Of a stretch of DNA of 64,000 bases, positions 16,507 through 30,285 are shown in pieces (within the stretch, counting starts at the first letter, position 1; each line of letters opens with the position of its first letter). Below the pieces are notes generated by a model that saw only the letters and a program-made list of their open reading frames with translations, was not told where the DNA came from and ran no database searches. The DNA is taken from NCBI RefSeq assembly GCF_900169525.1, contig NZ_LT821239.1:1138708-1202707 (forward strand). The letters run 5' to 3'. Source of the DNA: Corynebacterium pacaense (GTDB lineage: Bacteria; Actinomycetota; Actinomycetes; Mycobacteriales; Mycobacteriaceae). A program made the translations under genes and the position numbers.

Positions 16507-16902
16507 TTACGCGTTTGGTGTTGGTCGCGTGCTGATGCGCACGAGCGATCGTGGAATCCACCGATACCGACCAGTCGAGCAGGCCCTCGCGGTCTGCGTA
16601 CTCGTGCAGACGCGCTTGCGCCCGATCCCAGACACCATCGTCGGCCATGCGCCTATGCTACGCCCAGACCGTTTGCCAAGGCCCGAAAGCATCAGGAAGG
16701 TCTCGCCACGCGATCCCGCATCGATACCGGTAAATGATCCCCTCGACCATCAGTCGGGCGTCGGCGAACGGGCGGCCCTTCTTGCCCGTGGGACCAGGCA
16801 ACAAATCAGCAATCAGTGTCCATTGGTCGTCTGAGAGGAGCTGGAATCGAGACATACCTCCACGATCTCAGCTCCCACAGAATTCATTTGCAAGACACGC
16901 CC
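15979..16902 (-). mobile_element. IS5-family insertion sequence, copy A
   Basis: 924 bp with ends GGGCGTGTCTTG (15979 onward) and its complement ending at 16902, flanked by TA on both sides. It is nearly identical to copies B and C. I saw two base differences from copy C, one of which creates a stop in orfA. It is the left, inverted end of the composite transposon. Its inner flank lies inside the signal-peptide region of a lipoprotein gene. Confidence 0.93.
16460..16855 (-). pseudogene. Transposase orfA of IS copy A, nonsense mutation
   Basis: Same 131-codon frame as in copies B and C (starts MSRFQLLSDDQWTLIADLLP) but codon 66 is TAG (16658–16660) where the other copies have TGG (Trp in QTVWAWHRR). 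The product stops after 65 residues, before the first catalytic Asp (SVSVDSTIARAH). Confidence 0.88.
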
Positions 16903-16904
16903 TA

Positions 16905-17417
16905 GGACTGGCAGGATGTGGCGCAAATGAAACCCCGGAGCCTGTAACTAGTAGTAGCGAGGTCACTGCTACGACCTCGGAGGAGGCCGCGACGACCACG
17001 AGTAGTGAGGCGGCGGCGAAGTCTGTCGTAAAGGAACCGATCGTTGAGGAGCCCTACGCAGAGCCCGCACCAGTCGTCAAGGAGGCCTATGCCGCGCCAC
17101 AGATCCCTCCTTTTATGAGACCTGAGGATTTTGACCCTTACGGGCCTCCAAAGTTCGTCGAGTGTTGGGAAAGTAACGCAGCGGTCATGTCGGACGGTTC
17201 GATTGTCACCGACACGGTGAACTGCGCACCGGACCCTGCCCCGTCAGCGGTCGGACCTTACGGCAGTCCCCCGCGCGCGGACGGATGTGTCGGCCCCGCT
17301 GCTGTGTGTGGTTACTACGATGAGTACGGCAATCCGATCTGGTTCGACAAGATGACCGGCGAGACCTCCCCGCGTTACTACGACGAGTACGGCAATCCCA
17401 CGATGGAGAGCTACTAA
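16905..17417 (+). pseudogene. 5'-truncated lipoprotein gene
   Basis: The frame enters directly from IS copy A and begins at the end of a lipobox, LGLAGCG, followed by a Thr/Ser/Glu-rich linker (ETPEPVTSSSEVTATTSEE), a Pro/Val/Glu-rich stretch and a C-terminal part with a repeated YYDEYGNP motif and four cysteines. The hydrophobic signal segment before LAGC is missing, replaced by IS sequence, so the product could not be exported normally. The family is not recognised. The IS evidently inserted into this gene in the donor and carried off only its 3' part. Confidence 0.8.
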
Positions 17418-18838: not shown

Positions 18839-19753
18839 TCAGGCTGCGGTCATATCAATCACGATTTTGCCGGTGGCGTGGCCGTCTTCAACCACGGCTA
18901 GTGCCTCCCCGGCCCGATCGAGGGGATACCGGCTGGTGACCTGCGGGTCAACCAGGCCGTATTTGATCACATCGGTGATCTTCGCCATCGCCTCCGGGGT
19001 TCGCTCCAGGCCCACTCCACCGAGTTCTGCGGCGGTAGCCGGATCAACGGCAGAGATGAGATGGGAGGGGTCGGTGACCAGTCCGGCGACCTCGCGCAGT
19101 GCCTGCCCGCCGACCAGGTCGACGATGAGGTCGACTCCGTCCGGGGCTAGGTGGCGGACCCGGCCGGCCACAGCATCCCCCGACGGGATGAAGGTGGCAC
19201 CGGTGGCTTCGACGACCTGGCGTTTAGCTTCACTGGCCACTCCGAGCACGGTGAACTTATGGACCCGACCGATCTGGGCGGCCATCAAGCCGACACCCCC
19301 ACCGGCCCCGACGATCAGCAGAACCTGGCCGGGATCGAGCTCGATCTGGTGGGTGACATCATAAGCGGTCGCTGCGGCCACCGGGATGGTGGCGGCATCA
19401 GTGAAGGAAATCTCCTCCGGCTTGACCACCGCGTCGACCGCGGCGACTAGGGTGTCTTCAGCGAAGCCGCCGTAACCCGGGACGACTGGGCCCAGGATCT
19501 CCTGGCCGACGGTGAACTCCTCGACTCCGGCTCCGACGGCGGTGATCACGCCGGCGACTTCCTGGCCCATCGGGGCTGGCAGCGCCAGATCGGTGCCCAG
19601 GGCGCCGGAGCGGATCTTCCAGTCGACGGGGTTGACCCCGGCGGCACGAACGTTCACCGCGAGTTCTCCCGGTCCTGGTTGTGGGGCTGGACGGTCAATC
19701 AGCTTCTGAGTGTCAGGCCTATCGAAGATGTGGAACGCATATACCTTGGACAT
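18839..19753 (-). CDS. Zinc-free MDR-family NADP-dependent oxidoreductase (quinone-oxidoreductase-like)
   Basis: 304 residues: GroES-like N-terminal domain (VRAAGVNPVDWKIRSG, MGQEVAGVITAVG) and Rossmann domain with VLLIVGAGGGVGLMAAQIGR. The catalytic and structural zinc cysteines of alcohol dehydrogenases are absent, as in quinone-oxidoreductase-type members. The ATG at 19753 starts MSKVYAFHIFDRPDTQKL. Last gene of a minus-strand run ATPase–cupin–oxidoreductase with gaps of 56 bp, so probably controlled by the FNR-type promoter upstream of the ATPase. A frameshifted paralogue lies at 24975–25627. Substrate unknown. Confidence 0.88.
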   Translation of the reverse strand: MSKVYAFHIFDRPDTQKLIDRPAPQPGPGELAVNVRAAGVNPVDWKIRSGALGTDLALPAPMGQEVAGVITAVGAGVEEFTVGQEILGPVVPGYGGFAEDTLVAAVDAVVKPEEISFTDAATIPVAAATAYDVTHQIELDPGQVLLIVGAGGGVGLMAAQIGRVHKFTVLGVASEAKRQVVEATGATFIPSGDAVAGRVRHLAPDGVDLIVDLVGGQALREVAGLVTDPSHLISAVDPATAAELGGVGLERTPEAMAKITDVIKYGLVDPQVTSRYPLDRAGEALAVVEDGHATGKIVIDMTAA

Positions 19754-20294: not shown

Positions 20295-22172
20295 TTATGT
20301 GGTGGCGGTCTGGTGGGTATCGGCGGCGGCCTTCTTGGCCGCGGCCTGCGGTTCCTTGAGGGTGGGGCGCAGCAGGAGCATCGCAATCGCGATGACCAGC
20401 AGGACGGAGGCCTCGTGGACGAGCATGCCAATCGACATGGTCACTCCACCGAGCAGGACACCGATCAGCAGGATCGTGACGGTGAGCAGGGCGATGCCGA
20501 TGTTGACCCGCATCGTGTTGACGGTGCGCTTAGCCACACCCAGGGCGTAGGGCAGCCGCGGCAGCCGGTCGGCCATCAGGGCGATATCGGCGGTCTCGAT
20601 GGCGGCAGGCGAACCGGCCGCACCCATCGCCACACCGATGTCCGCGGTGGCCAGTGCCGGGGTGTCATTGACACCGTCGCCAACCATGGCCACGACCCGG
20701 CCCTGCGCCTGCAGCTCCTTGACGATCTCGAGCTTGTCCTCAGGCATCAGTTCTGCCCTCACCTCGTCGACACCGAGCTCGGCGGCGACGTTGCGGGCCA
20801 CTCGCTGCGCGTCACCGGTGGCCATGACCACGCGGATTCCCTTATCGTGCAGGGACCTGATCGCGGCCGGGGCGTCGTCACGGATGGTGTCGGCCACGGC
20901 GACGATGCCGATGGCTCGTCCGTTGACGCCGACGTACATGGCGGTCCTGCCCTGGTCATTGAGCTCGAGAATGCGGGTGTTATCCGGGGTGTGATCGAGC
21001 AGGTCGGCTGAGCCCACGGCCACGGTGGCACCGTCCACGTCAGCGCGGATGCCGCGGCCGGCGACCGGTTCGGCCTTTTCCACCATCGACACGGTCAAGC
21101 CCTTGTTCTCTGCACCTTGGATGATGGCCTCGGCCAGGGGGTGCTCCGAGGCGGTTTCGGCACGGGCGGCCAGGAGCAGTACGTCTTCGTCCGAGTAGGA
21201 GGGGTCGATGACCTCGACATCGGTTAAGACGGGCCGGCCGTTGGTCAGCGTGCCGGTTTTGTCGACGACCACGGTGTCGACTTTCGCGGCGGTCTCGAGG
21301 TATTCCCCGCCCTTGATCAGGACGCCGTCCTTGGCGGAGCGGCCGATGCCGGCGACGATCGAGACCGGGATCGAGATGACCAGAGCACCGGGGCAACTGA
21401 TGACCAGCAGGGTCAGCGCCAGTTCGACGTTGCTGGTGATCAGACCGACGGCCAGGGCAGTGACCATCACACCGGGGGTGTAGTAGGTGGAGAACTTCTC
21501 CAGGAAGGTCTGGGTCTTGGCCTTGTCATCCTGGGCGTCTTCGACGCGGTGGATGATCTTGGCCAGGGTGGAATCCGAGCCGATGCCGATCGCCTCAATG
21601 CGCAGCACACCGGAGCGCAGCCAGGTGCCGGCGAAGACCTCGGAGTCCGCGGCCTTCTCGGCCGGGACGGATTCTCCGGTGATGGTGGCCTCATCGACCC
21701 CACCGTGTCCGGAGAGCACCCGACCGTCGACGGGGACCTGTTCGCCGTTGCGCACCAGAACGGTGTCGCCGGGGACAAGTTCCCAGATCTCGACCGTGTC
21801 AGGTTCCCCGTCGCGCAGGATGGTGGCGGTTTCCGGGGCGGCATCCACCAGGTCGGACAGGGCCTGGCGGGTGCGGTTCATGGTCGCCTTCTCCAGTGCC
21901 TTGCCGAGGGCGAAGAGGAAGGTCACCGCGGCTGATTCCCACCAGTTCTGGAGAAACAGGGCGCCAACGGCGGCGACGATGACCAGCAGGTCAATTGAGA
22001 TCATCTTGATCCGCAGTGCCTGGTAGGCGGAGAGGGCGATCTGCCAACCGGCGACGACCGCTGCGGCGATCATGAACGCATCCGACAGGATCATCTCGGC
22101 AGGGGTGAGCCAGGACAGAATAATCAACAGGCCTGAGACGGCGACGATGCCCCAGGTTTTCCAGGTCTTCAT
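20295..22172 (-). CDS. Heavy-metal P1B-type ATPase with Cys-Pro-Gly membrane motif
   Basis: 625 residues. ATPase hallmarks: TGES (165–168), phosphorylation site VVVDKTGTLT (Asp304), SEHPLAEAI, and VGDGVNDTPALA. There is no N-terminal metal-binding domain; the protein starts with membrane helices. The metal-site helix reads LLVISCPGALVIS (Cys260-Pro261-Gly262), where Cu and Zn/Cd pumps have CPC and Co/Fe-type pumps SPC. The substrate is therefore open. The C-terminus (KEPQAAAKKAAADTHQTATT) is soluble. First gene of the ATPase–cupin–oxidoreductase run, with an FNR-type box and -10 element upstream. Soluble CPSC proteins encoded nearby may replace the missing domain (inference). Confidence 0.93.
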   Translation of the reverse strand: MKTWKTWGIVAVSGLLIILSWLTPAEMILSDAFMIAAAVVAGWQIALSAYQALRIKMISIDLLVIVAAVGALFLQNWWESAAVTFLFALGKALEKATMNRTRQALSDLVDAAPETATILRDGEPDTVEIWELVPGDTVLVRNGEQVPVDGRVLSGHGGVDEATITGESVPAEKAADSEVFAGTWLRSGVLRIEAIGIGSDSTLAKIIHRVEDAQDDKAKTQTFLEKFSTYYTPGVMVTALAVGLITSNVELALTLLVISCPGALVISIPVSIVAGIGRSAKDGVLIKGGEYLETAAKVDTVVVDKTGTLTNGRPVLTDVEVIDPSYSDEDVLLLAARAETASEHPLAEAIIQGAENKGLTVSMVEKAEPVAGRGIRADVDGATVAVGSADLLDHTPDNTRILELNDQGRTAMYVGVNGRAIGIVAVADTIRDDAPAAIRSLHDKGIRVVMATGDAQRVARNVAAELGVDEVRAELMPEDKLEIVKELQAQGRVVAMVGDGVNDTPALATADIGVAMGAAGSPAAIETADIALMADRLPRLPYALGVAKRTVNTMRVNIGIALLTVTILLIGVLLGGVTMSIGMLVHEASVLLVIAIAMLLLRPTLKEPQAAAKKAAADTHQTATT

Positions 22173-22220: not shown

Positions 22221-22262
22221 AAGTTAGGGGCATTCCGGGTTTAACTCCTTGATCTGGATCAA
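22221..22262 (-). promoter_or_regulatory. FNR-type promoter of the ATPase operon
   Basis: Perfect palindrome TTGATCTGGATCAA (22249–22262; on the minus strand TTGAT-N4-ATCAA), then 22 bp, then -10-like TAACTT (22226–22221). With a start about seven bases past the -10, the palindrome centre is at -41.5, the class II activator position. Two other cargo promoters have exactly this geometry. Confidence 0.75.
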
Positions 22263-22425: not shown

Positions 22426-22773
22426 TTAGTAGGCCGAGGGTTTGGTGGTACAGCCGGCGTCCATGAGAGGGCCGGTGTGAGTGCTCAGCCATTCCCGGAT
22501 CGGGTAGCGGCCGTGTGGGTCGGGCGCCGCAAGGGAGGGGAACAGGGCGAGGTCGTCATCTACGCGTCGCTGGTAGGCGTCACGGGTCTCCTTGAGATGT
22601 CCTAGGTGATAGTGTCGTCCTGGCCCGCAGGATGGCTCACGCGGTACAACGCCGCCACACTGTGGTAGGCGGGAGTAGCCGTTGCGTATGGCATCCTGGA
22701 TGTCGCCTGTATTCAGGGCTCGAGTTCTTGCGAGAAGATTCGGTCCCTGTCGTTCACGGGTCGGTGTGGGCAT
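22426..22773 (-). CDS. Hypothetical protein, uncertain
   Basis: 115-residue open frame between the repeat-protein gene and the ATPase promoter. It contains QCGGVVPREPSCGPGRHYHL, a Cys/His-containing stretch, and no membrane segment. No Shine-Dalgarno precedes the ATG at 22773 and I do not recognise the sequence. It may be non-coding; listed because nothing else fills 22362–22814. Confidence 0.3.
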   Translation of the reverse strand: MPTPTRERQGPNLLARTRALNTGDIQDAIRNGYSRLPQCGGVVPREPSCGPGRHYHLGHLKETRDAYQRRVDDDLALFPSLAAPDPHGRYPIREWLSTHTGPLMDAGCTTKPSAY

Positions 22774-22814: not shown

Positions 22815-23132
22815 CTAATGATCGTGGGCGTTGACAATGGCGTTGACCTTGGCATCCACAGCCTCCAGTGTGCTCAAGTCCAGGCGGGCAGTGTCGGTGT
22901 CCACGCCGTGCCCCTTCATCAGGAAGTCCAGCTTCGGGTGCAGCTGGGCGAGGGTATCGTTCGCCATGCTAGAGGGGTCACCGCCGTGGGCGGCGCATAA
23001 CGCGTTCGCCTTGGCGTGCAGTGAGGAGACGGATTCGAGGTCCAGATCCGACTCGTCGAAGTTCTCGACCCCGTGGTCCTTGAGCAGGAAGTTCAGTTTC
23101 TCGTGGAGACTGGCAAAGGTCACTTCGGCCAT
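22815..23132 (-). CDS. Small protein of two tandem repeats, unknown function
   Basis: 105 residues that are almost entirely two copies of a ~45-residue unit: FASLHEKLNFLLKDHGV… and LAQLHPKLDFLMKGHGV…, each ending with a Leu-rich part and a VDAKVNAI/LHAKANAL helix and AH near the end. The shared core is L-H-x-K-L-N/D-F-L-L/M-K-x-H-G-V. Each repeat carries three conserved His, one Cys in repeat 1; soluble. The family is not recognised. The start at 23132 follows GAAAGGACGCCACC. It has its own FNR-type promoter, identical in layout to that of the ATPase. Confidence 0.82.
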   Translation of the reverse strand: MAEVTFASLHEKLNFLLKDHGVENFDESDLDLESVSSLHAKANALCAAHGGDPSSMANDTLAQLHPKLDFLMKGHGVDTDTARLDLSTLEAVDAKVNAIVNAHDH

Positions 23133-23181: not shown

Positions 23182-23223
23182 AAGTTATGGACAATCCGGA
23201 GAAAGTACCTTGATCCGCATCAA
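23182..23223 (-). promoter_or_regulatory. FNR-type promoter of the repeat-protein gene
   Basis: TTGATCCGCATCAA (23210–23223), 22-bp spacer, TAACTT -10 (23187–23182). The sequence ACTCATTAAGTTA around the -10 is shared with the ATPase promoter, suggesting the two arose by duplication. Confidence 0.75.
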
Positions 23224-23337: not shown

Positions 23338-23574
23338 TCAGATCGCCGACGGCTTGGCGGTGTAACCGACCTCGGCTACCGCGGTAACCAGGTCACGTAC
23401 GGAGGCCTTCTGTGGGTCGTGGGTGACCAGGATGCGTCCGGAGGAGAACTTCACCTCTGCATTCTCCACGCCATCCAAACCATGCAGCTTGTTTTCGATC
23501 TTGGCAACACAGCTCGGACAGGTGAACTCATCAGAGCGCAAGGTGGTGTTCTTCAGCATGGCCGGGGCGGTCAT
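23338..23574 (-). CDS. Soluble heavy-metal-associated (HMA) domain protein, CPSC type
   Basis: 78 residues, a single ferredoxin-like HMA domain: FTCPSC (Cys19, Cys22) in place of the usual GMTCxxC, then LDGVENAEVKFSSGRILVTHDP and the final VAEVGY. Likely a metallochaperone or carrier that hands metal to the P1B-ATPase, which lacks such a domain (inference). ATG at 23574 after GAAAGGACC. Preceded by its own FNR-type promoter. Paralogous to the CPSC protein at 24557–24796. Confidence 0.88.
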   Translation of the reverse strand: MTAPAMLKNTTLRSDEFTCPSCVAKIENKLHGLDGVENAEVKFSSGRILVTHDPQKASVRDLVTAVAEVGYTAKPSAI

Positions 23575-23627: not shown

Positions 23628-23669
23628 AAGATACGGTCCTTTCCGGGTTAATTCCTTGACCTGGATCAA
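23628..23669 (-). promoter_or_regulatory. FNR-type promoter of the CPSC-protein gene
   Basis: TTGACCTGGATCAA (23656–23669; one base off the perfect palindrome), 22-bp spacer, TATCTT -10 (23633–23628). Same spacing as the promoters at 22221–22262 and 23182–23223. Confidence 0.72.
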
Positions 23670-23730: not shown

Positions 23731-24480
23731 TTAAAGGCCGGTGACCAGGTCGGCCAGGGCCTGGTGGTTGGTAATGGCGATCCATTCGCGGCCAGAGTCG
23801 ATGACACCGGTTTTCTTCATCCGCGCCATTGCCCGGGAGGCGGACTCGACGGTGGTGCCGGCCATTCCGGCCACATCGTCGCGGCGCAGGCGGACCTGCA
23901 GCAGGCTGGATCCGTCTTGTCGGATTTGCCCGAGCTTGGCGTCCAGATGTTGGAGAGCGGCGGCCACGCGCTGCTCGACAGTCGAGGTGGTCTGTGCGGT
24001 CTCGCGTTCCCGGGACCGGACCAATTGGTCCTGCTGCATCCGCATGATCGCCAACGCCAGTTGCGGGTAGGCGACCACGACCTCGGCCAGGGCCTCGGCG
24101 GGCAGGTAGAGCGCGCAGGTGGTCTCGATCGCCCAGGCGGAGTCGGTGGCTGGGGAGCTATGGGTGTGCAGTGGGCCGATGACATCCCCGGGGGCGGCGA
24201 TGTCGACGGTGATTTCGCGGCCATTGATGGTGTCCCGGGTGATCCGGGCCCGACCGGAGGCGACCATATAGCTGCCCTGAGCCTGCTCGCCGGCTAGGAG
24301 GATGGGATCACCCGCGGCCCAGGCCCAGGAGGTCAGATGCTGGTCAAGCTCCCTGTGCTGTTGTGGGTTCAGCTTCTTGGTCAGCGGAGAACGGGCTAGG
24401 ACCTGCATGCGCACGTCCAGGGAGCACTGGTGCGGCTGAGCACAGGTGCGACGGACGGGATTGCGGGCCATAAGCCCCAT
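23731..24480 (-). CDS. Crp/Fnr-family transcriptional regulator with FNR-type recognition helix
   Basis: 249 residues: cyclic-nucleotide-type effector domain (about 35–145), dimer helix (about 146–185) and C-terminal winged HTH. The recognition helix is TTVESASRAMARM, with Glu212, Ser215 and Arg216 in the E-xx-SR arrangement FNR uses to read TTGAT. Cys13 and Cys19 near the N-terminus (TCAQPHQCS) and Cys122 (ETTCALYLP) resemble the placement of FNR cluster ligands, although FNR has four, so redox or metal sensing is plausible but unproven. The ATG at 24480 is chosen where similarity begins (MARNPVRRTC); 24471 is an alternative. It follows a CPSC-protein gene on the same strand by 76 bp. Confidence 0.9.
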   Translation of the reverse strand: MGLMARNPVRRTCAQPHQCSLDVRMQVLARSPLTKKLNPQQHRELDQHLTSWAWAAGDPILLAGEQAQGSYMVASGRARITRDTINGREITVDIAAPGDVIGPLHTHSSPATDSAWAIETTCALYLPAEALAEVVVAYPQLALAIMRMQQDQLVRSRERETAQTTSTVEQRVAAALQHLDAKLGQIRQDGSSLLQVRLRRDDVAGMAGTTVESASRAMARMKKTGVIDSGREWIAITNHQALADLVTGL

Positions 24481-24556
24481 GCTATCAAGCCCGGAGAGCA
24501 ATGACCGCGGAAGCGGAGGAACAAAAGCCTCCGACACAACCGACAGCCGCGCGCCC

Positions 24557-24796
24557 TCACCACTCGCTGCCTGAGGAGTGGGCAGTGGAGGTGATGTCGG
24601 TGACGACCTTGATGAGCTCGTCCACAGACACCTGTTGTAGGTCATGGGACACCACGAGATGGCCGGGCTGTACTACCACTTCGACGGAGGCCACCGCGTC
24701 CAGGTCACTGAGTGCGGTCTGGGCGGTGGCCAGGCAACTCGGGCAGAAAAACCCCGACGTGGACACGGTGGTGTGCTTGAGGATGGGAGTGGTCAT
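24557..24796 (-). CDS. Second soluble HMA-domain protein, CPSC type
   Basis: 79 residues, single domain with FFCPSC (Cys18, Cys21), DLDAVASVEVVVQPGHLVVSHDLQ and a Ser/His-rich end. Paralogue of the protein at 23338–23574. GGGGAG lies nine bases before the ATG. It lies directly upstream of the FNR-type regulator gene and may be co-transcribed with it. Only a half-site resembling the FNR palindrome is seen upstream. Confidence 0.82.
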   Translation of the reverse strand: MTTPILKHTTVSTSGFFCPSCLATAQTALSDLDAVASVEVVVQPGHLVVSHDLQQVSVDELIKVVTDITSTAHSSGSEW

Positions 24797-24974: not shown

Positions 24975-25627
24975 ATGTCGAAGGTATACGTGTTCAACGA
25001 GTACGGCGGCCCGGACAACCAGGAACTGATCACCCGCAACACCCCCAGCCGGCCCCGGGAGAACTCGGGGTCAAGGTCCACGCGGCCGGGGTCAACCCAC
25101 TTGATTGGAAGGTCCGTTCCGGGGTTGCCGGAACCCCGCGAGAGCTTCCGGCACCCCTGGGCGCGGAGGCCTCCGGGATCGTCACCGCCGTTGGAGACGA
25201 TGTGGAGGGCTTCGCGGTCGGCGATCAGGTGCTCGGCCTGGTGGTCCCCGGCGTCGGCGGATATGCCGAGGACACCCTGCTGGTGGCAGAGAGTACCGTG
25301 CTCAAGCCGGAGGAGATCTCGTTCACCGACGCCGCCGCGATCCCGGTCGCTGGGGCGAGCGCCTACGCCGGCACTCACCAGGTCGAGCTTGAACCAGGCC
25401 AGTCGTTGCTGATCAATGGGGCCGGTGGTGGGGTCAGGCTGATGGCCGCGCAGATCGGACGGGTCCACAAGTTCCAGGTCGTCGGCGTTGACCACGAGGA
25501 CAAGCGCGAGCTCATCGAATCCACCGGTGCTATCTTCGTCGCCACCAGCGACGCCGTCGTGGAGCAGGTGCATGCGCTGCTCCCTGACGGTGTGGACATA
25601 GTCTTCGACCTAGTAGTACTTCGTTAG
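24975..25627 (+). pseudogene. Frameshifted, 3'-truncated MDR oxidoreductase
   Basis: Starts MSKVYVFNEYGGPDNQELI, closely like the intact oxidoreductase at 18839–19753. A one-base deletion in a C-run near 25042–25046 moves the rest (ELGVKVHAAGVNPLDWKVRSG, GDQVLGLVVPGVGGYAEDT, INGAGGGVRLMAAQIGR) to another frame. The similarity stops after DIVFDLV near 25612, so about the last 80 codons are lost. Divergent from the CPSC/regulator pair. Confidence 0.88.
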
Positions 25628-26374: not shown

Positions 26375-26560
26375 GTGGCTATGTTGGCAATTCTAACATC
26401 AATACCCAACAAATCAAGGCAAAACTACTCCGAGTCCGGGGTTGTGTCCGATAGCATGGCGTCCTTTAAGCAGTTTGGAGGGCTAATTGAAGAAATGGCT
26501 ATGGCGGTCGCCCCGCTCATTGACGAAGTCCTCGTTAGCGGTGACGAATGTATCAAGTGA
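26375..26560 (+). CDS. Short open frame, uncertain
   Basis: 61-codon frame ending SFKQFGGLIEEMAMAVAPLI…SGDECIK, which looks more protein-like than its start. No Shine-Dalgarno. It may be the 3' remnant of a gene cut by earlier rearrangement. Apart from this and the hairpin I see nothing in 26304–26617. Confidence 0.25.
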   Translation: MAMLAILTSIPNKSRQNYSESGVVSDSMASFKQFGGLIEEMAMAVAPLIDEVLVSGDECIK

Positions 26561-26619
26561 TGAAACCTTACTAAGGTGTGGGCATCTGGCTTTCAGCGGT
26601 GCGGGTGTCGTGTGGCCTA

Positions 26620-27543
26620 GGGCGTGTCTTGCAAATGAATTCTGTGGGAGCTGAGATCGTGGAGGTATGTCTCGATTCCAGCTCCTCTCAGACGACCAAT
26701 GGACACTGATTGCTGATTTGTTGCCTGGTCCCACGGGCAAGAAGGGCCGCCCGTTCGCCGACGCCCGACTGATGGTCGAGGGGATCATTTACCGGTATCG
26801 ATGCGGGATCGCGTGGCGAGACCTTCCTGATGCTTTCGGGCCTTGGCAAACGGTCTGGGCGTGGCATAGGCGCATGGCCGACGATGGTGTCTGGGATCGG
26901 GCGCAAGCGCGTCTGCACGAGTACGCAGACCGCGAGGGCCTGCTCGACTGGTCGGTATCGGTGGATTCCACGATCGCTCGTGCGCATCAGCACGCGACCA
27001 ACACCAAACGCGTAAAAAAGGGCTATATCGAATTACAAGAATCCGCTGACCGAGCCGCCTGACCACGCAGTCGGCCGTTCTCGGGGCGGCTTGTCAACGA
27101 AAACACATCAGCTCGTCGATGGGCGCGGCCTGCCGCTGGTGACGATTTGCTCAGCGGGACAGGATGGTGACTCGCCGATGTTCATCCCGCTCATGGAACA
27201 AGTGCGGGTCGGCCGTCGCACCAGGCCCGATGCCGCGCTCTGCGACAAGGCGTACTCCTCGCGGGCGAACCGGGCGTACTTGCGCAGGCGTGGCATCGAA
27301 GCGGTGATCCCCGAACCTCGTGATCAGCAGGGGCATCGGAAGCGGCGCGGCATGCAGGGTGGCAGGCCTGCGAAGTTTGATGCGGAGAAGTATCGGGGAA
27401 GGAACGTGATCGAGCGTGGCTATTGCCGGTTGAAACAGTGGCGAGGACTCGCGACTCGGTATGACAAGCTCGCGATCGTGTACCGGGCCGCAGTTGTCCT
27501 CAACGGAGTGATAGCGTGGCTCAACCTTTTACAAGACACGCCC
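26620..27543 (+). mobile_element. IS5-family insertion sequence, copy B
   Basis: 924 bp, GGGCGTGTCTTG ends, flanked by TA on each side (26618–26619, 27544–27545). Right, outward-facing end of the composite transposon. Both transposase frames are intact. I saw three base differences from copy C. Confidence 0.94.
26667..27062 (+). CDS. IS5-family transposase, orfA (copy B)
   Basis: 131 residues: N-terminal DUF4096-type region (LSDDQWTLIADLLPGPTGKKGRP, YRCGIAWRDLPDAFGPWQTV) and the first catalytic Asp in SVSVDSTIARAHQH. The C-terminal VKKGYIELQESADRAA lies past the presumed slip site AAAAAAG (27014–27020). Complete transposase requires joining to orfB by a +1 (or -2) frameshift. Confidence 0.92.
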   Translation: MSRFQLLSDDQWTLIADLLPGPTGKKGRPFADARLMVEGIIYRYRCGIAWRDLPDAFGPWQTVWAWHRRMADDGVWDRAQARLHEYADREGLLDWSVSVDSTIARAHQHATNTKRVKKGYIELQESADRAA

Positions 27544-27546
27544 TAG
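27016..27546 (+). CDS. IS5-family transposase, orfB (copy B)
   Basis: Open from 27016 in the +1 frame relative to orfA. It contains HAVGRSRGGLSTKTHQLVD, the second Asp (CDKAYSSRANRAYLRRRG) and Glu (NVIERGYCRLKQWRGLATRY). An internal ATG/GTG-independent start is not evident near the conserved beginning, supporting translation by frameshifting. The stop TAG at 27544–27546 is formed by target TA plus flanking G, so the element has no stop of its own. Confidence 0.88.
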   Translation, partial: KRAISNYKNPLTEPPDHAVGRSRGGLSTKTHQLVDGRGLPLVTICSAGQDGDSPMFIPLMEQVRVGRRTRPDAALCDKAYSSRANRAYLRRRGIEAVIPEPRDQQGHRKRRGMQGGRPAKFDAEKYRGRNVIERGYCRLKQWRGLATRYDKLAIVYRAAVVLNGVIAWLNLLQDTP

Positions 27547-28817: not shown

Positions 28818-29113
28818 TTTCACTTCTTTCGGGATTTCTCCTGTTGTCCTGCACAAAAAAACTGCGCCATGCCGCCGGCGGATGGCGCGTGCCAGGCAAT
28901 CGTATGATCAGACAATGATCTCCAGTTGTGCAAGGGGTGAACTGTGTGTGAACGGTGGCGTTCAGGCATGCGCTGCCCGCGATGTGCCGGTTCCCGGACG
29001 CGGGTAATTCAGATCCCTTGCACACGTCTGAAAAGTGAACTAAGGTTAACGGAAAGTAAACAAACGGGTCTGGGAACATGAACAACCCGCGAGTTGAGAA
29101 AAGGAGAAGCACA

Positions 29114-29359
29114 ATGGCCACCGAGATTACCGCAATCCGCAACATCGAAGCCGACTATCTGTGGAGCGTCCGCGAAGACCTTCAATCCCGCTTCGCCGGC
29201 ATCGTCGCGGCGGAGATGATCGATGATGTCCTGGACTACGTCGCCTCGAACCGCAGCGCGCGGGTGACGGCCTTCAGCAAGATCTTCATCGAGCGCGAAG
29301 CAGCGGAGGCCCTCGTCTCGCTCGCAGGCACCCGCGGGGAACTCTCCCTGGCGGCCTAG
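29114..29359 (+). CDS. Small helical protein resembling the three-helix-bundle dimerisation domain
   Basis: 81 residues. VREDLQSRFAGIVAAEMIDDVLDYVA and ARVTAFSKIFIEREAAEALVSL look like the three-helix domain found alone or ahead of actinobacterial arsenate reductases/phosphatases. No enzyme domain is attached here. AAGGAG lies eight bases before the ATG. The stop TAG (29357–29359) coincides with the IS copy C insertion point and is preserved by the first base of the element. Confidence 0.65.
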   Translation: MATEITAIRNIEADYLWSVREDLQSRFAGIVAAEMIDDVLDYVASNRSARVTAFSKIFIEREAAEALVSLAGTRGELSLAA

Positions 29360-30282
29360 GGCGTGTCTTGCAAATGAATTCTGTGGGAGCTGAGATCGTG
29401 GAGGTATGTCTCGATTCCAGCTCCTCTCAGACGACCAATGGACACTGATTGCTGATTTGTTGCCTGGTCCCACGGGCAAGAAGGGCCGCCCGTTCGCCGA
29501 CGCCCGACTGATGGTCGAGGGGATCATTTACCGGTATCGATGCGGGATCGCGTGGCGAGACCTTCCTGATGCTTTCGGGCCTTGGCAAACGGTCTGGGCG
29601 TGGCATAGGCGCATGGCCGACGATGGTGTCTGGGATCGGGCGCAAGCGCGTCTGCACGAGTACGCAGACCGCGAGGGCCTGCTCGACTGGTCGGTATCGG
29701 TGGATTCCACGATCGCTCGTGCGCATCAGCACGCGACCAACACCAAACGCGTAAAAAAGGGCTATATCGAATTACAAGAATCCGCTGACCGAGCCGCCTG
29801 ACCACGCAGTCGGCCGTTCTCGGGGCGGCTTGTCAACGAAAACACATCAGCTCGTCGATGGGCGCGGCCTGCCGCTGGTGACGATTTGCTCAGCGGGACA
29901 AGATGGTGACTCGCCGATGTTCATCCCGCTCATGGAACAAGTGCGGGTCGGCCGTCGCACCAGGCCCGATGCCGCGCTCTGCGACAAGGCGTACTCCTCG
30001 CGGGCGAACCGGGCGTACTTGCGCAGGCGTGGCATCGAAGCGGTGATCCCCGAACCTCGTGATCAGCAGGGGCATCGGAAGCGGCGCGGCATGCAGGGCG
30101 GCAGGCCTGCGAAGTTTGATGCGGAGAAGTATCGGGGAAGGAACGTGATCGAGCGTGGCTATTGCCGGTTGAAACAGTGGCGAGGACTCGCGACTCGGTA
30201 TGACAAGCTCGCGATCGTGTACCGGGCCGCAGTTGTCCTCAACGGAGTGATCGCGTGGCTCAACCTTTTACAAGACACGCCC
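29359..30282 (+). mobile_element. IS5-family insertion sequence, copy C
   Basis: 924 bp, same ends and TA duplication (29357–29358, 30283–30284). Inserted in CCTAGG, where the stop codons of the 29114 gene and of rbsK overlapped. Intact frames. Differs from copy B at three positions I could find. Confidence 0.94.
29406..29801 (+). CDS. IS5-family transposase, orfA (copy C)
   Basis: 131 residues, identical in sequence to orfA of copy B as far as I can compare. Slip-site candidate AAAAAAG at 29753–29759. Confidence 0.92.
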   Translation: MSRFQLLSDDQWTLIADLLPGPTGKKGRPFADARLMVEGIIYRYRCGIAWRDLPDAFGPWQTVWAWHRRMADDGVWDRAQARLHEYADREGLLDWSVSVDSTIARAHQHATNTKRVKKGYIELQESADRAA

Positions 30283-30285
30283 TAG
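29755..30285 (+). CDS. IS5-family transposase, orfB (copy C)
   Basis: Same frame arrangement as copy B (+1 relative to orfA) with the second Asp and Glu of the DDE triad (CDKAYSSRANRAYL; NVIERGYCRLKQWRG). The stop TAG at 30283–30285 is again supplied by the target TA plus G. Confidence 0.88.
   Translation, partial: KRAISNYKNPLTEPPDHAVGRSRGGLSTKTHQLVDGRGLPLVTICSAGQDGDSPMFIPLMEQVRVGRRTRPDAALCDKAYSSRANRAYLRRRGIEAVIPEPRDQQGHRKRRGMQGGRPAKFDAEKYRGRNVIERGYCRLKQWRGLATRYDKLAIVYRAAVVLNGVIAWLNLLQDTP

Follow-up and report, generated by a model that had tools for sequence, protein, structure and literature searches.

HisRep, a histidine-repeat protein of 105 residues encoded in Corynebacterium pacaense, is, as judged by sequence comparison, the member of an uncharacterised family and an optional component of a metal-ATPase cassette of FNR type. 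From alignments and gene neighbourhoods, we regard it as almost certain that HisRep forms a conserved family and belongs to this cassette, and our best guess, to which we give a probability of about 0.5, is that the protein may act as a cytosolic metal-binding helper of the neighbouring pump. What is new here is the HisRep family, for which the libraries searched hold no curated model; the regulator type, the HMA proteins, and the P1B pump are of known kinds. An unannotated family with a four-unit repeat is thereby added to the FNR-type metal cassettes of actinobacteria and lactic acid bacteria, and it becomes directly testable how the sensing of oxygen or redox state is connected with an unusual CPG-motif pump. 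The window denotes the whole stretch of 64,000 nucleotides analysed, and positions are counted from its first letter.

Repeat architecture and conservation

The HisRep gene and its repeat units are located as follows.

22815..23132, minus strand: HisRep coding sequence (105 residues), recognised from its open reading frame and relatives
23070..23111, minus strand: unit 1, residues 8-21, SLHEKLNFLLKDHG, with cap histidine H20 in 21/21 members
22983..23024, minus strand: unit 2, residues 37-50, SLHAKANALCAAHG, with H39 in 21/21 and cap histidine H49 in 20/21
22905..22946, minus strand: unit 3, residues 63-76, QLHPKLDFLMKGHG, with cap histidine H75 in 21/21
22821..22862, minus strand: unit 4, residues 91-104, AVDAKVNAIVNAHD, with H103 in 20/21

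The initial annotation had described the protein as two copies of a histidine-containing repeat. Repetition is indeed far above chance, with a half-against-half alignment score of 112 as compared with 2000 shuffles averaging 24 and never exceeding 48, but the units number four rather than two. For the window protein alone, an ungapped four-way comparison of 14-mers scored 179 (mean 26 and maximum 76 in 400 shuffles), and about 45% of this score comes from the two-fold pairs (units 1-3 and 2-4). As an independent test of the four-fold arrangement, unit 1 was compared with unit 2 within one hairpin, using 1000 shuffles per member. Here, the score was reached by none of the 1000 shuffles for either the window or the Salinicoccus protein and by 8/1000 for that of Tetragenococcus, while the within-hairpin repeat is not significant in a Carnobacteriaceae-group member (L044; 161/1000) and in Yaniella copy 2 (739/1000). 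The best four-way frame of Yaniella copy 2 is shifted as well. Because the within-hairpin results differ by member, the four-fold reading is firm for part of the family and eroded elsewhere. Read from the sequence, the HisRep repeat is better described as four-fold, consisting of four putative helices that are each a version of LHxK...HG.

Conservation was assessed in an alignment of 21 distinct members (A4), seven of which are the window protein or at least 96% identical to it. This alignment omits a truncated B. jeotgali member, two contig-end fragments (L050 and L051), the second T. osmophilus plasmid copy, and three later-found members (G1220, G1303, and G1232). Among the helix-ending histidines, H20 and H75 are found in 21/21 members, and H49 and H103 in 20/21, the exceptions being a cysteine in place of H49 in one member and a tyrosine in place of H103 in another. 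The remaining histidines are H39 (21/21), H10 (16/21), and H65 (9/21). With identity to the window protein spanning 36-98%, these counts mean that H20, H39, H49, H75, and H103 are nearly fixed over that range. Each unit also carries a lysine two residues past the first histidine position (K12 in 19/21; K41, K67, and K95 in 21/21), and the glycine after the cap histidine in units 1-3 occurs in 19/21, 12/21 (G50), and 19/21 members, respectively. The regular histidine spacing originally ascribed to both repeats holds in part only: residue 93, the counterpart of H39 in repeat 1, is a histidine in 0/21 members, and position 65 is a glutamine in 12/21. Moreover, acidic FDxSxLD loops are conserved, the computed pI is 4.8, and the sequence contains no CxxCH motif. 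As no signal peptide is apparent by eye, HisRep is probably cytosolic.

Searches for related families and structures

The protein had been called unrecognised at the outset, and this description is borne out in that no convincing match was obtained in Pfam, NCBIfam, or PDB sequences; the profile search recommended at the same time was carried out and brought up no characterised family. In Pfam, the window HisRep stays below the curated cut-off, its best score being 13.8 bits against the required 28. The TAL effector repeat touches 5/21 members (best E 0.08), aligning 16 residues of the window protein at 13.8 bits versus 28, and was judged a chance match. Eight more Pfam families each touch one or two members, the best being HFX_2341_N at E 0.0026 in one member; Pfam cut-offs are known for the window protein, and the other 20 members of A4 were graded by E value. 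The window HisRep gave no NCBIfam match at E values up to 1, nor did any of the 21 members at E <= 0.1, and a four-member HisRep profile matched no PDB chain at E values up to 10. Matches were likewise lacking in viral contigs and phage records, as well as in PADLOC (two members searched). Among the PHROGs, phrog_32091 is weakly matched by 8/21 members (best E 0.0015; in the window HisRep, over residues 61-81) and seven others by one HisRep member each, all of which we attribute to chance or a shared helix pattern. No HisRep match was seen to TIGR03652 or related hemerythrin/RIC families, which the RIC-like neighbours described below do match in pieces. Open-access literature searches returned no description of the HisRep protein, its cassette, or the CPG motif.

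The structure prediction that had been suggested was also run and yielded a four-helix model with a pLDDT of 91. More precisely, AlphaFold2 with the window HisRep (13 sequences) gave a pLDDT of 91.3 and a pTM of 0.84, with helices at residues 6-19, 35-48, 62-74, and 89-104, and with the Marinilactibacillus protein placed first (10 sequences) the same four helices were obtained at a pLDDT of 91.0 and a pTM of 0.85, the weakest of the five Marinilactibacillus-led models having a pLDDT of 78.7. In the predicted fold, H20, H49, and H75 would each directly follow the final residue of a helix, and H103 would belong to the last turn of helix 4. Successive helices are connected by loops of 13-15 residues (first model) or 11-14 residues (second model), more than a tight hairpin would take.

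Foldseek found nothing at E <= 0.001 in the PDB and BFVD, and cytochrome c-prime is among its weak matches for HisRep. A second structural aligner placed the calponin-homology domain at the top for both models, weakly and with no chain above Z 5.0; the leading matches were 6oa6 (Z 4.7, rmsd 4.2, 94 aligned) and 1wku_A (Z 5.0, rmsd 4.6, 95 aligned). Both the calponin-homology layout and the HisRep models have four helices joined by long loops, but with Z at most 5.0 and an identity of 5-17% we claim no kinship, and a match at this level can mean merely a common arrangement. Since the loops are 11-15 residues long and the weak top matches are to calponin-homology domains, there is no indication of a simple up-and-down bundle of four helices. 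Hence, from the four-helix bundle proposed initially, the four helices are predicted with either of two starting members, but not the simple up-and-down layout.

Distribution of HisRep

Relatives of HisRep were found in Corynebacterium, Rothia, Brevibacterium, Yaniella, Salinicoccus, Atopococcus, Marinilactibacillus, Alkalibacterium, and Tetragenococcus. A scan of genome contigs gave 12 HisRep loci, which on the Actinomycetota side belong to Corynebacterium sputi, C. sp. HMSC04H06, C. variabile, Rothia, two Brevibacterium, and Yaniella, and otherwise to Salinicoccus, Atopococcus, Marinilactibacillus, Alkalibacterium, and Tetragenococcus solitarius. In Yaniella, two copies are present, some 19 kb apart.

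Among whole genomes, HisRep is rare and patchy; the counts that follow include the HisRep-bearing centre genome of each sample, and the samples overlap. HisRep was found in 1/301 genomes of the window's family, searched with a single-sequence query, and in 1/396 of its phylum sample, in both cases the window's own genome. The corresponding numbers are 8/27 for the family of Alkalibacterium, 2/105 for that of T. solitarius, 1/33 for that of Salinicoccus, and 6/197 for that of Yaniella, these six being two full-length copies, one contig-end fragment, and three weak matches inside long frames. Using a larger profile, we found HisRep in 13/395 genomes of the order of Marinilactibacillus and 2/396 of the order of Yaniella.

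Genes of the cassette

Around HisRep, the window contains the following genes.

18839..19753, minus strand: zinc-type oxidoreductase, which also adjoins the ATPase in L012 and L049
19810..20238, minus strand: cupin protein, which also adjoins the ATPase in Yaniella (L012) and G926 (L049)
20295..22172, minus strand: P1B-type metal ATPase, by domain and motif reading, with CPG in TM4, MSIGMLVHEAS in TM6, and no N-terminal HMA domain found
23338..23574, minus strand: HMA1, a soluble heavy-metal-associated domain protein with CPSC, by domain match
23731..24645, minus strand: FNR-like regulator open reading frame, with recognition helix TVESASR, CAQPHQC, and one central cysteine
24557..24796, minus strand: HMA2, a second HMA-domain protein, without an FNR box within 220 nt

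Two further features of this region may be recorded. By eye, a second and frame-disrupted copy of the zinc-type oxidoreductase lies at 24976-25627, the copy at 18839-19753 being intact. An open reading frame of 115 residues between HisRep and the ATPase (22426-22773, minus strand) is 93-96% conserved in six relatives; because it is interrupted in four of these (L002, L006, L008, and L009), it is probably decaying or no gene.

We examined 28 HisRep loci for a P1B ATPase match, taken as at least 45% identity over 150 residues, and found one within 3 kb in 21 of them. Two of these 21 are near-identical T. osmophilus plasmids, where the match lying this close is a C-terminal ATPase fragment and the complete gene is found at a distance of about 5 kb. 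Moreover, in 25/28 loci a promoter of the box-plus-hexamer kind described below lies no more than 6 kb away, both strands being considered. The seven loci with no P1B ATPase within 3 kb, three of which lie less than 500 bp from a contig end, are two from Brevibacterium, Yaniella copy 2, those of Salinicoccus and G1232, and two contig-end loci. Both of the ATPase-less Brevibacterium loci (for one, the contig ends 454 bp away) have a RIC-like gene about 120 bp upstream of HisRep, and an HMA gene is found within 200 bp of HisRep in Salinicoccus and G1232. No cassette gene is present in the 20-kb stretch of Yaniella copy 2. Frequent further members of the cassette are Dps, short RIC-like proteins (TIGR03652, below cut-off), and Crp/Fnr regulators.

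The short RIC-like proteins (86-110 residues; L010 5834-6094, L012 17804-18070, and L015 10089-10421) occur in the same FNR cassettes and are possibly a reduced type of di-iron or repair protein. On the T. osmophilus plasmids, the C-terminal ATPase fragment precedes HisRep (L005 4805-5572, and likewise L004), and the HMA and RIC-like genes are duplicated in tandem (L005 7442-8825, and likewise L004).

The family of Alkalibacterium shows how the pump and HisRep are distributed relative to each other. A close relative of the ATPase (E <= 1e-150) is found in 22/27 genomes and HisRep in 8/27, so that in this one family 14 of the 22 ATPase-bearing genomes are without HisRep, from which it follows that the pump does not need it. 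All eight HisRep genomes have two ATPase matches, as against 3/19 of the others. HisRep is thus optional in the cassette and occurs in genomes that have an additional copy of the pump.

Promoters and FNR-type control

Three putative promoters of the same kind are found in the window.

23210..23223, minus strand: FNR box of HisRep, TTGATGCGGATCAA, its centre 84 nt before the start codon
23182..23187, minus strand: -10 hexamer of HisRep, TAACTT, 22 nt past the box, in class II geometry
22249..22262, minus strand: FNR box of the ATPase, TTGATCCAGATCAA, by pattern match
22221..22226, minus strand: -10 hexamer of the ATPase, TAACTT, 22 nt past the box
23656..23669, minus strand: FNR box of HMA1, TTGATCCAGGTCAA, by pattern match
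23628..23633, minus strand: -10 hexamer of HMA1, TATCTT, 22 nt past the box

According to the initial annotation, HisRep has its own promoter, matched to that of the ATPase even around the -10 region, and is under FNR-type control. At the sequence level we can confirm the former, as both promoters have the box, the 22-nt spacing, and TAACTT, and they share their layout and TAACTTAATGAGTG[C/T]CACAA. FNR-type control is likewise supported by the box, the 22-nt spacing, and the nearby FNR-like regulator, and from the box, the spacing, and the E..SR recognition helix of that regulator we consider such control of the HisRep cassette very likely. If the hexamer occupies -12 to -7, the box centre would fall at -41.5. 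The FNR box is described as TTGAT-N4-ATCAA (PMC4505428), and the window thus resembles class II FNR/FLP regulons in its TTGAT-N4-ATCAA box, the -41.5 spacing, and the E..SR recognition helix of the regulator. The regulator itself, however, differs from FNR in having CAQPHQC plus one central cysteine instead of four cysteines in the usual layout; Gram-positive FNR-like proteins are described as often having two cysteines, with their cluster being debated (PMC5039431). The start of the regulator is likelier at the ATG at 24480, and CAQPHQC is found near this likely start.

The pattern TTGAYNNNNATCAA has five matches at three sites in the window, versus 0.06 matches expected. In the whole genome, TTGAYNNNNRTCAA occurs at eight sites, three of them in the cassette, as compared with two for the reversed-pattern control. 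At the five sites outside the cassette, TAnnnT at 22 nt was seen in 1/10 orientations, and this one instance (L088) was set aside on finding by eye no sensible gene behind it.

For a wider view, we chose 36 cassette genes from 11 sequences of two phyla, some of them near-identical, and sought a box within 220 nt. A box was found for 31/36 genes, with TAnnnT at exactly 22 nt in 30/31 and at 23 nt in one Brevibacterium gene; this pattern is a permissive one and also occurs at other offsets in several AT-rich sites. The five boxless genes are the window regulator, the window HMA2, and the HisRep genes of L010, L012, and L013, where in L010 and L013 the gene directly upstream of HisRep has a box. 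An own box is therefore present for 6/9 of the HisRep genes examined. Across 30 ATPase loci, TAnnnT lies at 22 nt in 79/152 box orientations, and the next most frequent offset in the range of 10-35 nt is 24 nt, with 24; block-shuffled copies of the loci contained an average of 2.4 boxes, and 0.15 with the hexamer. Every one of these 30 stretches has at least one box-plus-hexamer promoter.

The CPG-type P1B ATPase

P1B-4 ATPases have an SPC motif in TM4 and an HEG[G/S] motif in TM6. The best PDB match of the window ATPase is 7qbz, which we take to be a P1B-4 enzyme, and in this alignment C-P-G stands opposite S-P-C and the TM6 LVHEAS opposite LVHEGS. In TM6, with LVHE[A/G]S, the window pump may resemble the P1B-4 ATPases, of which 7qbz is the nearest solved one; in TM4 it differs from them in having CPG in place of SPC. 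The cassette pumps in general likewise read CPG in TM4, not CPC or SPC, the latter being the P1B-4 motif. CPGALVI is found in 13 of 14 aligned cassette ATPases, the 14th being a C-terminal fragment without TM4 (Tetragenococcus plasmid), and TM6 reads MS[I/V]GMLVHE[A/G]S in the alignment, with G, A, or S at the variable place among members. CPG is also present in 30/30 ATPase loci from the family of Alkalibacterium (L052-L081; 27 by a first pattern and 3 by a looser one), four of which are also among the 14 aligned sequences. To our knowledge, CPG is not a recognised motif of any P1B class, and our literature search found no paper joining 'P1B-type ATPase' and 'CPG motif'. In the family of Alkalibacterium, the CPG ATPase with nearby class II FNR-type promoters is widespread (22/27 genomes), even without HisRep.

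Some indications about the substrate and the host range of the pump come from Corynebacterium glutamicum. Its copper-induced region is given as cg3281-cg3289, with no cg329x gene named in the main text of that paper (PMC3140484), and to this extent copper is weakly disfavoured as a substrate. One table calls cg3292 a copper chaperone (PMC12113857), and cg3291 is referred to as an uncharacterised regulator (PMC8112011); we infer that these are the counterparts of HMA1 and the window regulator, respectively. In addition, a P-type ATPase, Cgl2974, numbered near copB (Cgl2962), is listed among low-pH-responding ATPases (PMC13049421). Cgl2974 is probably the CPG pump, in which case a laboratory strain of C. 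glutamicum, besides the plasmid carrier, would have the pump too.

Possible role of HisRep

A metal-handling helper not described before is suggested because HisRep travels with a metal pump and an oxygen-type switch between distant bacteria. In such a scheme, low oxygen or a reduced cell would lead the FNR-like regulator to turn on the pump, the HMA protein, and HisRep together. HisRep might then hold a divalent metal (of the Fe, Zn, or Co class rather than Cu) via its conserved histidines and, as a buffer or chaperone, could pass it to the pump or the HMA protein. Small metallochaperones of the HMA/CopZ type offer a parallel, since they too are small proteins encoded beside a P1B pump and have the role proposed here, but HisRep differs from them in its all-helical, histidine-based units and in having no CxxC and no HMA domain match. 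The metal role is favoured by the repeat, the nearly fixed histidines, the proximity of the pump and of FNR-type promoters, and the 7qbz match of the pump; counting against it are the variation at H10 and H65, the single replacements of H49 and H103, the seven loci with no ATPase nearby, the many pump-bearing genomes that lack HisRep, and Yaniella copy 2 with its lack of cassette genes.

A bolder form of this proposal, which we regard as doubtful, is that HisRep has a new tetra-histidine fold, in which four near-identical helices with long return loops would have their C-terminal ends meeting so that H20, H49, H75, and H103 make up one site. The protein would then be the dedicated partner of an undescribed CPG-type pump, with both switched by FNR and the cassette moved between Actinomycetota and Bacillota. 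The tetra-histidine site is a guess from the anatomy of the predicted model.

HG at the end of a helix is also a common helix-capping pattern. It is conceivable, at an appreciable minority chance, that the histidines and glycines of HisRep are metal-free helix caps, and that the protein modulates the activity of the CPG ATPase or of an HMA protein, or serves either as a protein-protein adaptor. This would agree with the HG at the helix ends, the conserved acidic FDxSxLD loops, and the tight pairing of the two genes in four Lactobacillales loci (Atopococcus, Marinilactibacillus, Alkalibacterium, and T. solitarius), where the HisRep start lies 26 nt past the ATPase stop codon. The Salinicoccus and Brevibacterium senegalense stretches, however, hold HisRep without the ATPase, and G50 is found in 12/21 members as against 20/21 for H49. 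Given that the glycine is less conserved than the histidine, capping alone fails to explain the histidines.

Improbable, in our judgement, is the binding of heme or a di-iron centre, which would give HisRep a gas-, redox-, or nitrosative-stress-related task within the FNR regulon. Four helices with conserved histidines would suit such a protein, and so would the company it keeps: in Brevibacterium, a small RIC-like gene lies about 120 bp ahead of HisRep, and RIC-like genes and Dps are frequent neighbours in Lactobacillales. While the short RIC-like proteins that share the FNR cassette recall the RIC/ScdA/YtfE iron-sulfur repair proteins, HisRep itself has no match to these. Moreover, the protein lacks CxxCH and any sequence match to heme or hemerythrin families, and by eye we saw no hemerythrin-type carboxylate set beside the histidines. 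Lastly, a role for HisRep in regulating the cassette or in binding nucleic acids seems very improbable, as its small size, helical nature, and, in corynebacteria, a promoter separate from that of the pump are countered by its acidity (pI 4.8), the lack of a match to helix-turn-helix families, and the FNR-like regulator already present.

Plasmids and mobile elements

HisRep is found in four plasmid records, two from Corynebacterium (97.1% and 96.2% identity) and two from Tetragenococcus osmophilus (42.9%), all annotated as 'hypothetical protein'. The C. glutamicum plasmid bears HMA1, HisRep, and the ATPase, and of the regulator only 90 residues were matched. Since the Corynebacterium and Rothia copies are near identical and the gene is present on plasmids, recent transfer can be inferred. 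In the window, copies of a transposase-type element are seen around the region at 16734-17417, 26483-27546, and 29009-30285; a transposase open reading frame starting with MSRFQLLSDDQW occurs at 26667 and 29406, and a piece of its opposite-strand frame opens the open reading frame at 16734. As these repeated copies surround the region, it would fit a mobile or rearranged island.
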